A program made the translations under genes and the position numbers. From contig NC_049980.1 in NCBI RefSeq assembly GCF_000003815.2, positions 28,199,273-28,263,272 of the forward strand: a stretch of 64,000 bases of DNA. Reading direction: 5' to 3'. This DNA comes from Branchiostoma floridae. Lineage: Eukaryota; Chordata; Leptocardii; Amphioxiformes; Branchiostomatidae. Below, one piece after another: positions 39,385 through 63,741 of the stretch; within the stretch, counting starts at the first letter, position 1, and the number at the start of each line of letters is the position of its first letter. Below the pieces are notes generated by a model. That model made no database searches. It had not been told where the DNA came from and saw only the letters and a program-made list of their open reading frames with translations.

Positions 39385-39487
39385 ATGGCTGGGACGTGGC
39401 GCCTGCTCGGTGTACATGTGGTGGCTGTGGTAGTGATTGTGGGAGCGGTCGCTCCGGTGGTGCCTGCAAGCGTGGGGAGGACAGAAG
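39385..39487 (+). CDS. Signal-peptide exon of the protease mosaic
   Basis: ATG at 39385 in an ACCATGG context starts [20 protein letters not shown] and a hydrophobic core ending AVAPVVPAS. Cleavage is likely after VPA. The GTAAAA donor leaves phase 1, which fits the first LDLa exon at 41953. The link across the 2.5 kb intron is inferred from phase and from the absence of another leader. Confidence 0.6.
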
Positions 39488-63400: not shown

Positions 63401-63741
63401 GCCCTCCTGTCTTCGTTTCAAACATCACGGTCCTTATATTAGTTGTGATTATTTCTTTGCGCCACGTGAAGAATTGCAGTTCTGTCATGTTCAGTCGTGG
63501 CAAATTTTGTGTTGATGTCAGTATTTCCTGTATCATACACTTTAAACAGAAGTTCTAAAGCAACGCTCATAAACCTACCATTCCACTTGATTAACTACAG
63601 GTGATGACAGCCGCTGGTATCTTACGGGTGTCACCAGTTGGGGAGCAAGATGCGCCAACCGGTACCAACCAATGGTCTTCACCAAAGTCTCCAATTACGA
63701 AGCCTGGATGCACGACAAAATGACCACTGGTGGTCAAATTG
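39385..63741 (+). CDS. Secreted LDLa/S1-protease mosaic (predicted polyprotease), open at window end
   Basis: Exons: 39385-39487; 41953-42066; 42144-42254; 42996-43097; 43690-43809; 44683-44777; 45109-45209; 46066-46346; 46876-47052; 47757-47897; 48301-48411; 48775-48891; 49260-49361; 50578-50694; 51001-51132; 52527-52637; 52943-53044; 53267-53386; 53738-53832; 54147-54247; 54880-55166; 55574-55750; 56015-56155; 56815-56925; 57024-57140; 57497-57598; 58242-58421; 60165-60275; 60593-60694; 60917-61036; 61388-61482; 61812-61912; 62414-62700; 63154-63330; 63601-63741. Joined length is 4702 nt, one frame, no stop, 1567 aa and continuing. Order: signal peptide ([15 protein letters not shown]), LDLa x4, SP1, LDLa x4, S/T linker, LDLa x3, SP2, LDLa x3, S/T linker, LDLa x3, SP3. 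Module borders are all phase 1, which permits shuffling. It should be secreted. Several separate genes remain possible, but I see no stop, terminal exon or second signal peptide between modules. Confidence 0.65.
40680..41076. mobile_element. Family X element, uninterrupted copy
   Basis: About 400 bp in intron 1 of the protease mosaic. It aligns with the three separated pieces of 27605-29793 (GGATGGCATCCTCTGGGA left, ATAATCAAATCAACATGGCC right). It serves as the empty-site reference for the nested stack. Confidence 0.75.
41306..41543. mobile_element. 238-bp MITE (family Z), copy 1
   Basis: Inverted termini TGCACTCTCACCGGACG and CATCCGGTGAGAGTGCA enclose internal arms (GGCACGCTTGCGGAATTGC and complement). 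A copy in the opposite orientation lies at 54254-54500. Confidence 0.8.
41759..41897. mobile_element. Short foldback repeat
   Basis: TCACAAAGTTTTTGATGCAC (41769) is mirrored by GTGCATCAATAACTTTGTGA (about 41868-41887). It lies just upstream of the first LDLa exon. Confidence 0.6.
41953..43809 (+). CDS. LDLa modules 1-4 of the protease mosaic
   Basis: One module per exon: 41953-42066, 42144-42254, 42996-43097 and 43690-43809. Each has six cysteines and the calcium-site pattern, e.g. [31 protein letters not shown] and [16 protein letters not shown]. The first two exons are nearly identical in nucleotide sequence and lie 77 bp apart, a recent exon duplication. All are phase 1-1 in the joined frame. 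LDLa modules bind calcium and ligands, often in secreted proteases and receptors. Confidence 0.85.
44683..47897 (+). CDS. S1 serine-protease domain SP1 (trypsin-like specificity)
   Basis: Five exons: 44683-44777, 45109-45209, 46066-46346, 46876-47052 and 47757-47897. Activation site is [11 protein letters not shown]. The triad is His in VVIAAHC, Asp in ENDIALVKL and Ser in [19 protein letters not shown] puts Asp at chymotrypsin position 189, predicting cleavage after Arg/Lys. SWGRGC and KPGIYV give normal Gly216 and Gly226. Gly197 of the usual GDSGGP is Ser. Propeptide Cys (GCGRR) and catalytic-domain Cys (INYLC) form the usual 1-122 pair, so the activated domain would stay tethered to the LDLa chain. 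The last exon has no stop and ends at a GTAGGT donor in phase 1. Confidence 0.9.
45722..45811 (-). mobile_element. Tail fragment of the 5S-headed SINE family
   Basis: AAGCTGGTGTGTTACGCCGA, a TACCGGCTATATAGAT segment and a GATACA simple repeat match the end of the element at 8258-8310 in the same orientation. The 5S head is absent. Confidence 0.7.
47210..47360. repeat. Dispersed repeat shared with 43818-43960
   Basis: TACGTCAAATTTCC...CCGGG.CCCGGC.GGGC occurs here in an SP1 intron and again at 43818-43855, just after LDLa4. Both are followed by weakly similar A-rich sequence. The family is unknown. Confidence 0.5.
47515..47640 (+). mobile_element. SINE fragment with tRNA-like B box
   Basis: CGGTTCAGTCCTGG resembles a pol III B box. 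It is followed by GTCTTTCGGGTGGGACGTAA, close to the body segment GTCTTTTGGAAAGGACGTAA of the 5S-headed SINE at 8258-8530 (minus strand). This suggests different pol III heads on a shared SINE body. Confidence 0.5.
48301..50694 (+). CDS. LDLa modules 5-8 of the protease mosaic
   Basis: Exons 48301-48411, 48775-48891, 49260-49361 and 50578-50694, all phase 1-1. Typical modules read [32 protein letters not shown] and [16 protein letters not shown]. The second is atypical, [16 protein letters not shown]: the usual Asp-Gly after the fourth Cys is replaced, so its calcium site may be weakened. The same deviation is in its paralogue at 57024-57140. The first three have counterparts after SP2; the fourth does not. 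Confidence 0.85.
48559..48642. repeat. GA microsatellite
   Basis: About 40 AG units with one GGG interruption, in the intron between LDLa5 and LDLa6. Confidence 0.95.
49708..49992. repeat. Possible short inverted-repeat element
   Basis: TATGTCATACC at 49712 is mirrored by GGTATGACATA ending at 49989. The interior carries several TTCGAA/TTCGAG palindromic motifs. It lies in the intron between LDLa7 and LDLa8. Confidence 0.4.
51001..51132 (+). CDS. Ser/Thr-rich linker exon 1
   Basis: A 132-bp phase 1-1 exon (TAACACAG acceptor) encodes [20 protein letters not shown] and similar Thr/Pro/Ala-rich sequence. This looks like a mucin-type O-glycosylated stalk separating the first protease unit from the second. 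Confidence 0.7.
51394..51658. other. Assembly gap (265 N)
   Basis: A run of N just inside the duplicated unit, immediately left of a foldback element whose inverted arms may have broken the assembly. Sequence here is unknown. Confidence 1.
51659..51980. mobile_element. Foldback element adjoining the gap
   Basis: AAACTTAACTCTTAAGTAGC at 51659 is the start of an arm of more than 40 bp that is inverted at 51939-51980. The left end may extend into the N run. It is absent from the duplicate unit at 59787-59897. A second palindromic repeat (GGATTCGCG/CGCGAATCC motifs) follows at 52005-52200. Confidence 0.75.
52527..53386 (+). CDS. LDLa modules 9-11 of the protease mosaic
   Basis: Exons 52527-52637, 52943-53044 and 53267-53386, phase 1-1. 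Patterns are [32 protein letters not shown] and [16 protein letters not shown]. The second and third are paralogous to LDLa3 and LDLa4 ([21 protein letters not shown]). They are near-identical to 60165-61036. Confidence 0.9.
53738..56155 (+). CDS. S1 serine-protease domain SP2 (altered S1 pocket)
   Basis: Exons 53738-53832, 54147-54247, 54880-55166, 55574-55750 and 56015-56155, with the same sizes and phases as SP1 except for a 287-bp third exon. Activation site is SR/IVGGDTA. The triad is intact: [26 protein letters not shown]. The residue aligned with trypsin Asp189 is Gly ([11 protein letters not shown]), and the pocket Gly226 is Met (KPMVF). Trypsin-like specificity is therefore not expected; small or unusual P1 residues are an inference. 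GWGARC replaces the usual SWG.GC, so Ser214 is Gly here, unlike SP3. No stop; it ends at a GTATGC donor in phase 1. Confidence 0.9.
54254..54500. mobile_element. MITE (family Z), copy 2, inside the SP2 intron
   Basis: It starts CTGCACTCTCACCGGACG, 6 bp after the exon donor, and is flanked by TAAAG (54249-54253 and 54501-54505). The same intron at 61913 lacks it, giving a clean filled/empty comparison. Its interior is inverted relative to 41306-41543. Confidence 0.85.
56815..57598 (+). CDS. LDLa modules 12-14 of the protease mosaic
   Basis: Exons 56815-56925, 57024-57140 and 57497-57598, phase 1-1, paralogous in order and size to LDLa5-7 (111, 117 and 102 bp in both). The middle one again has the degenerate [16 protein letters not shown] pattern. 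A counterpart of LDLa8 was not seen. Confidence 0.85.
57216..57432 (+). mobile_element. tRNA-derived SINE
   Basis: TGTGGCGCAACGGCTAGAGCG resembles a pol III A box and GGTCCTGAGTTCAATACTC a B box. The spacing is tRNA-like but the cloverleaf is degenerate. A 130-bp body and a run of T follow. It sits in the intron between LDLa13 and LDLa14. Confidence 0.7.
58242..58421 (+). CDS. Ser/Thr-rich linker exon 2
   Basis: A 180-bp phase 1-1 exon (CATCCAG acceptor) encodes [20 protein letters not shown] and further Thr/Ala/Ser-rich sequence ending TTSASTEG. It is probably an O-glycosylated stalk. Its first bases complete the last Cys of LDLa14. Degenerate copies of its start (AGGTGATTCCATTACATCAT; GGTGACTCCAGAATAGC) lie upstream at about 58100 and 57990. 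Confidence 0.7.
58422..60164. other. Large intron between linker 2 and LDLa15
   Basis: 1.7 kb without a supportable exon. From 59643 it is homologous to 51246 onwards, marking the left limit of the second copy of the segmental duplication. Confidence 0.6.
60165..61036 (+). CDS. LDLa modules 15-17 of the protease mosaic
   Basis: Exons 60165-60275, 60593-60694 and 60917-61036 have the same sizes and almost the same sequence as LDLa9-11. The coding changes I see are confined to the first codon after the acceptor (Asp to Gly); most other differences are silent. Confidence 0.9.
61388..63741 (+). CDS. S1 serine-protease domain SP3 (near-copy of SP2)
   Basis: Exons 61388-61482, 61812-61912, 62414-62700, 63154-63330 and 63601-63741. 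Triad intact ([26 protein letters not shown]). It shares Gly189 and Met226 (QPMVF) with SP2 but keeps the usual Ser214 (TSWGARC). Other replacements against SP2 include FTSGWGDTS for [17 protein letters not shown] for YSGALTEN, and NYEAWMHDK for NYVAWMDDK. No stop; it ends at a GTATGC donor in phase 1, so more modules should lie beyond the window. Confidence 0.9.

Follow-up and report, generated by a model that had tools for sequence, protein, structure and literature searches.

A predicted type I membrane-anchored polyprotease with three serine protease domains and 20 LDLa modules in a lancelet gene cluster

Frog ovochymase is a secreted chain with several S1 serine protease domains, which carries CUB in place of LDLa modules and has no SEA-transmembrane (TM) anchor. 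In the insect protein Nudel, LDLa arrays alternate with S1 units in a long chain, the layout being printed as 3LDLA-SP-3LDLA-pSP-LDLA(RGD)-2LDLA(pSP) for the honey bee orthologue (PMC1761132) and as LDL(2)-SP-LDL(2)-SPH-LDL(3) for many insects (PMC11172050), and pSerP1050 of Tenebrio (Nudel/ovarian serine protease) is termed membrane-anchored, with a TM at 58-80 (PMC1761132, PMC11172050). Polyserase-1 (TMPRSS9) combines three S1 domains, the first two of which are active, with one LDLa and a type II anchor, and polyserase-2 and polyserase-3 are secreted, the first domain alone being active in polyserase-2 (PMC1435904). Here, we describe a gene (gene A) that starts in a 64,000-nucleotide stretch of the Branchiostoma floridae genome (the window; C2:28199273-28263272, contig NC_049980.1) and that is clustered with two paralogues, genes B and C. 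As the best overall explanation of this locus, it seems probable, if by no means certain, that gene A is a single gene for a type I membrane-anchored polyprotease with an in-chain activator and a sheddable ectodomain.

Within the window, a chain of splice sites joined 35 exons (39385-63741, 4699 nt) in a single open frame. Beyond position 64000 the same chain added 12 exons, up to a stop at 70182 (L009:9454), yielding a whole gene model of 47 exons and 6096 nt with a single terminal stop and a predicted protein of 2031 residues. Coordinates above 64000 carry the window numbering on into the adjoining contig pieces L009-L017 (a position in L009 being the coordinate minus 60728). The exon seeds were placed by hand, from the sequence, an LDLa pattern scan and in part the junctions of a preliminary description of the window, after which a program picked splice sites within 10 bases of the seeds by phase, lack of stops and splice score; the resulting chain is a check of that description, not fully independent of it, and not a blind prediction. 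The 35 exons in one frame that it had proposed were recovered, with 4699 nt instead of its 4702 nt, a shortfall of 3 nt that an alternative acceptor could explain (e.g., the CAG-CAG pair at 42141/42144). The junctions for which it had advised a check (47897-48301, 51132-52527, 56155-56815 and 58421-60165) were all present in the model, and the terminal exon that it expected past 64000 was found among the 12 further exons, together with a SEA-EGF-TM-tail block.

The order of the encoded modules is leader, four LDLa, S1-1, four LDLa, stalk, three LDLa, S1-2, three LDLa, stalk, followed by three LDLa, S1-3, three LDLa, two Ser/Thr-rich exons, SEA, EGF-like, TM and short tail. Altogether there are 20 LDLa exons, and the splice-site model agrees with the preliminary description on three S1 domains and 17 LDLa modules in the window. 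On the 2031-residue protein, Pfam matched Trypsin in three places, with a whole-protein E of 6.1e-178, and LDLa in 19 (E 7.3e-129), matches that are far above chance level. The features are as follows (+, forward strand).

39385..39487, +: exon 1, with start codon, signal peptide (29 protein letters not shown, and onward) and phase 1 donor
41953..43809 (41953-42066, 42141-42254, 42996-43097, 43690-43809), +: LDLa array 1, four LDLa (pattern scan, splice chain, Pfam Ldl_recept_a)
44683..47897 (44683-44777, 45109-45209, 46066-46346, 46876-47052, 47757-47897), +: S1 domain 1, five exons; triad intact, D189, trypsin-like
48301..50694 (48301-48411, 48775-48891, 49260-49361, 50578-50694), +: LDLa array 2, four LDLa (pattern scan, splice chain)
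51001..51132, +: Ser/Thr-rich stalk exon 1; 44% S+T, weak donor gttctg
51394..51658, no strand: assembly gap (265 N), within the intron that separates units 1 and 2
52527..53386 (52527-52637, 52943-53044, 53267-53386), +: LDLa array 3, three LDLa (pattern scan, splice chain)
53738..56155 (53738-53832, 54147-54247, 54880-55166, 55574-55750, 56015-56155), +: S1 domain 2, five exons; GQSR↓IVGG, triad intact, G189, M226
56815..57598 (56815-56925, 57024-57140, 57497-57598), +: LDLa array 4, three LDLa (pattern scan, splice chain)
58242..58421, +: Ser/Thr-rich stalk exon 2; 46% S+T, weak donor gtcctt
60165..61036 (60165-60275, 60593-60694, 60917-61036), +: LDLa array 5, three LDLa, copy of array 3 (pattern scan, splice chain)
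61388..63741 (61388-61482, 61812-61912, 62420-62700, 63154-63330, 63601-63741), +: S1 domain 3, five exons, copy of S1 domain 2; GQSR↓IVGG, triad intact, G189, M226
64377-65148: three LDLa exons past the window (splice chain)
65776-65955 and 66484-66645: two Ser/Thr-rich exons past the window (splice chain)
66902-68143: SEA, three exons (splice chain, Pfam)
68548-69519: EGF-like module, two exons (splice chain)
69694-69802: TM exon (splice chain)
stop at 70182 (L009:9454): tail exon with stop (splice chain)

Since 1-1 exons join in frame whichever gene they come from, and 36 of the 46 introns in gene A are in phase 1, frame continuity comes cheaply, and two or three separate adjacent protease genes might have been joined only because such exons always fit. 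A bias to phase 1-1 exons is reported for exon shuffling in lancelets (PMC4284660). A scan for leader exons (i.e., an ATG, a hydrophobic stretch and a phase-1 donor, at strict and lax thresholds and with the real leaders as positive controls) recovered the three real leaders of the cluster, at 39385, 72601 and 110520, and at the strict threshold detected no leader besides 39385 across the 30.8 kb of gene A. Moreover, when the SEA-EGF-TM tail was compared with the genome, none of the 17 matches listed (E up to 1e-4; 40 candidates scored) lay inside 39385-66900. Both results agree with the single gene and single leader of the preliminary description. The true gene ends in the cluster (A to B and B to C) consist of a SEA-EGF-TM-stop block followed by a strong leader exon, and in gene A the introns between the end of an S1 and the LDLa that follows it are short (403, 659 and 635 bp).

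A number of points weigh against this reading. In-frame joining is by itself weak evidence for one gene, and the join between units 1 and 2 spans the 265-base N gap at 51394-51658. The lax threshold added two weak leader-like open reading frames (ORFs) in gene A, one in unit 1 at 47133 and the other at 57794, between units 2 and 3, and even the strict scan was unspecific, with three non-leader matches in gene B (two of these in simple repeat) and two matches in the 39.3 kb that precede gene A. AATAAA or ATTAAA words were observed between units at 51257, 56542, 57980 and 58205 (five inter-unit stretches scanned); the ~1.3 kb after the stops of genes A, B and C held one, two and four of them, respectively, and poly(A) words are not informative on gene limits. 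The four Ser/Thr-rich stalk exons all have weak donors (gttctg, gtcctt, gtcctt and gtttca, respectively), and their inclusion is less sure, with the frame being kept when any one of them is skipped. Finally, the gene model is a prediction from DNA, and so are the enzymatic activities, the specificity of the pockets, the cleavage of SEA and the order of activation. The preliminary description had pointed to leaders and poly(A) sites between the units as the marks of separate genes; no strict-threshold leader was present there, and what did occur was the one weak leader-like ORF at 57794 and the four poly(A) words. On the strength of the leader scan with its positive controls and of the tail search, separate genes were judged unlikely, and we consider them improbable despite the phase-1 introns, the ORF at 57794, the poly(A) words and the N gap.

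The same description had taken the product of this single gene to be secreted and soluble. Because the terminal exons past the window encode SEA-EGF-TM-tail, the protein is instead predicted to be type I membrane-anchored. It has only two long hydrophobic segments, i.e., residues 1-33, which resemble a signal peptide, and residues 1970-2002 at the C-terminal end, so that neither a type II anchor nor the layout of type II transmembrane serine proteases (N-terminal TM, C-terminal S1) is found. Pfam identified SEA with an E of 9.6e-10 on the whole protein and 3.3e-11 on the tail alone, and the EGF match was below its cut-off (19.7 vs. 21.5 bits, E 0.0011). The C-terminus of transmembrane mucins, as generally known, consists of a Ser/Thr-rich stretch, SEA, an EGF-like module, TM and a short tail, a layout shared by gene A; unlike these mucins, gene A has only short Ser/Thr-rich exons, and its N-terminal part is made up of protease cassettes. 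Matriptase (epithin/PRSS14) carries LDLa modules. It also resembles gene A in having an S1 protease together with SEA, which in matriptase is cleaved at Gly149-Ser150 (PMC5567652) and, once self-cleaved, holds the ectodomain non-covalently (PMC5567652, PMC7271384). The topology of gene A is inverted, however, with SEA near a C-terminal TM, while matriptase is type II with SEA near an N-terminal TM and a single S1. Given that SEA domains can be pre-cleaved and that matriptase is shed (PMC5567652), the gene A protein could also be mainly soluble, with its SEA-EGF-TM exons skipped or its ectodomain cut off at once. This is unlikely in our view (although no systematic search was directed at alternative terminal exons), since the SEA-EGF-TM-tail exons are kept in frame in all three paralogues, among which the SEA segment of A shares 75-76% identity with those of B and C.

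For the membrane-anchored protein, the SEA domain further suggests a route of release. Its putative cleavage site reads SGSVIA in gene A and SGSVVA in genes B and C, which is of the G-S-(V/I)-(V/I) type of self-cleaving SEA domains. A profile of the three SEA segments (A, B and C) matched ADGRF1 (7wxu_R, E 0.00037), with GSVVA over GSIVA, and in the 57-residue ADGRF1 chain 8hc0_B (a weak match, E 0.067) the G of this site is the last residue. In such receptors, autoproteolysis is attributed to a GSVVV or GSIVA motif (PMC6954182). Because GSVIA of gene A aligns with GSIVA of ADGRF1, shedding of its ectodomain is plausible.

All six S1 domains of genes A, B and C (A1-A3, i.e., S1-1 to S1-3, B1, B2 and C1; numbered via alignment to plasma kallikrein) contain H57, D102 and S195, and with G193, D194 and a (K/R)↓IVGG site (the arrow marking the cleavage position) they have the features expected of active S1A proteases. 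The trypsin-like set of D189, G216 and G226 was present in A1, B1, B2 and C1 and absent from A2 and A3, in which G189 and M226 stand where plasma kallikrein has D and G. Specifically, S1-1 has a trypsin-like pocket, as judged from these residues, and is preceded by the activation site DDEDK↓IVGG (11 protein letters not shown), which we take to resemble the activation peptide of trypsinogen. S1-2 and S1-3 carry GQSR↓IVGG and thus require cleavage after Arg, and because of G189 and M226 in their pockets they are themselves probably not tryptic. Among the best 60 of 555 (S1-1) and of 559 (S1-2) solved sequences matched, TMPRSS2, plasminogen, hepsin and plasma kallikrein occurred for both domains, and enteropeptidase was among the best 60 for S1-1. 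Each of the six domains has ten cysteines, one of which precedes the activation site in gene A. The usual S1 disulfide pairing, C1-C122, ties the chains after activation, and it is likely that the S1 chains here stay disulfide-linked as well, as the preliminary description had supposed. The ratio of nonsynonymous (dN) to synonymous (dS) divergence was below 1 for both A2-A3 (0.039/0.143) and B1-C1 (0.051/0.279).

Compared with the described multi-domain proteases, gene A shares with Nudel the alternation of LDLa arrays with S1 units, but in Nudel, as its layouts are printed, the second S1 is partial or non-catalytic, while A1, A2 and A3 all keep H57, D102 and S195 and the chain ends in a C-terminal SEA-EGF-TM anchor. 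With the polyserases it shares two or more S1 domains in one ORF, according to the gene model and Pfam, and with polyserase-1 also LDLa and a membrane anchor; it differs from them in its type I topology, its 20 LDLa modules and its three intact triads. We class the gene A family as a variant of polyserase-like proteins, placing it neither with Nudel nor among the type II proteases. Within the open-licence literature, we know of no described protein that combines three intact triads with a SEA-EGF-TM anchor. No paper on this architecture was found there by title and start of abstract (publication elsewhere being possible), and neither PMC6526094 nor PMC4284660 has the words trypsin or protease in its main text. 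The alternation of LDLa and S1 units, for which the preliminary description knew no parallel in a soluble protein, does have a precedent in insect Nudel (PMC1761132, PMC11172050).

Units 2 and 3 of gene A turned out to be copies of each other over ~7 kb (about 51248-58644 and 59644-66165). Their coding sequences are identical at 1549 of 1636 aligned sites (94.7%, eight gap columns), and their introns with short flanks at 3750 of 4400 (85.2%, 606 gap columns). Amphioxus is very heterozygous (3.2-4.2% in sequenced amphioxus species; PMC12862219, PMC12500494), and unit 3 might be an assembly artefact in which the other haplotype of unit 2 was placed in tandem, the real protein then having two S1 domains; the ~7 kb of copied sequence and a stretch of exon and intron at 52822-53571 that is 98-99% identical to unit 3 would fit such an event. 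However, the coding, intron and S1 (dS 0.143) divergence all exceed the reported heterozygosity, making two alleles unlikely. From 51658 to the end of gene A the sequence is also free of N, and a whole-genome DNA search with one unit 2 exon yielded five matches, i.e., itself, unit 3 (94%), gene B (76%), a locus on contig C18 (76%) and gene C (75%), with no other copy above 76%. A haplotype duplicate was judged unlikely on this divergence and contiguity, and we regard it as highly improbable. Units 2 and 3 appear to be a genuine tandem duplication, and the 52822-53571 patch, in copies whose identity elsewhere is mostly 82-97% and in parts far lower, is likely a recent gene conversion.

Downstream, gene B (72601-92967) has 32 exons, 1336 residues, 12 LDLa exons and two S1 domains (the acceptor of its stalk exon being the program's guess), and gene C (110520-122452) has 20 exons, 845 residues, six LDLa exons and one S1. 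Both have complete frames, each with a leader and a SEA-EGF-TM-tail block. Gene C also contains a relic LDLa exon at 119500-119613 (L014:8772-8885), which is damaged ahead of its last cysteine and is 91% identical, over 114 aligned bases, to the seventh LDLa exon of gene B and its edge. Because this relic was kept, gene C has probably lost a second protease unit.

The sequence itself displays the module order, the uninterrupted frame, the intact triads and activation sites, the cysteines, the SEA cleavage motif and one C-terminal hydrophobic helix. Beyond these features, we propose that the gene A chain would arrive at the cell surface as tethered zymogens in a row. SEA would break itself at G↓SVIA, with the pieces remaining joined until pulled or cut, and the whole ectodomain would thereby be open to later shedding. 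The trypsin-like S1-1, behind DDEDK↓IVGG, would be activated first, after which S1-2 and S1-3 would be activated by S1-1 or by an outside tryptic enzyme, since they need cleavage after Arg while their pockets, with G189 and M226, appear non-tryptic; the idea of an in-chain activator rests on this asymmetry between S1-1 and S1-2/S1-3. With the activated pieces staying joined via the C1-C122 type of disulfide, the cell may display or shed one body that holds a built-in activator and two effector enzymes, with LDLa arrays that bind ligands. Blocks flanked by phase-1 introns would be duplicated or lost, altering the number of enzyme cassettes. In its most specific form, this proposal is of a sheddable cell-surface cascade in one chain (a trypsin-like activator, two non-tryptic effectors and a mucin-type SEA-EGF-TM anchor), with a cassette number of 3, 2 or 1 through gain and loss of phase-1 blocks, which we put forward tentatively and hold to be rather doubtful in full.

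If true, the locus would provide a natural protease cascade in cis, with activator and effectors on one surface-held chain that is releasable as one body. Polyserase-1, polyserase-2 and Nudel, as described in the papers cited above, have at least one inactive S1, and all six S1 domains of genes A, B and C keep the triad. The cluster also presents the gain of a cassette, in units 2 and 3 of gene A, beside probable loss (the relic in C), a combination that suits tests of how multi-enzyme chains originate by exon duplication.

In a tree of the S1 domains that included relatives from two other contigs of the same genome, C18 and C4 (entered as joined match pieces, with that from C4 incomplete), only A2+A3 (95/93) and B1+C1 (98/95) were well supported; since A1 and B2 were not firmly placed, no order of unit duplication is claimed. 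The C18 relative (C18:1433697-1439583, L020) is a family member on another chromosome with LDLa exons, one S1 (D189, triad motifs) and then many divergent LDLa exons, and the 50 kb examined at this locus (about 2.5 kb of which is N) yielded no match to a SEA-EGF-TM exon. On C4 (C4:10175295-10236535 and C4:11171061-11179882, L024-L033), SEA and EGF exons of distant similarity (about 40-52% identity) were found tens of kb away from LDLa-S1 exons, possibly as parts of one gene. The SEA-EGF module therewith seems to be used elsewhere in this genome.

The tails of genes B and C (ends at L012:2239 and L015:1724) finish in ...EEDSWL, which to us looks like a class I PDZ-binding end, and that of gene A finishes in ...HENGKV. 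The second S1 of gene B (83240-88401; L011:2512-7673) has an intron pattern unlike that of the other five S1 domains, with an extra intron splitting exon c and a shifted d/e intron, the frame being intact. Its extra intron holds a foldback element whose inverted arms are almost perfect (L011:2882-3056 / 5987-6161, 100%, and 3052-3387 / 5593-5928, 99%), and an intron gain with a mobile element is possible. Finally, a long (GA)n microsatellite is located at 48560-48642 in gene A, in the intron after the fifth LDLa exon.

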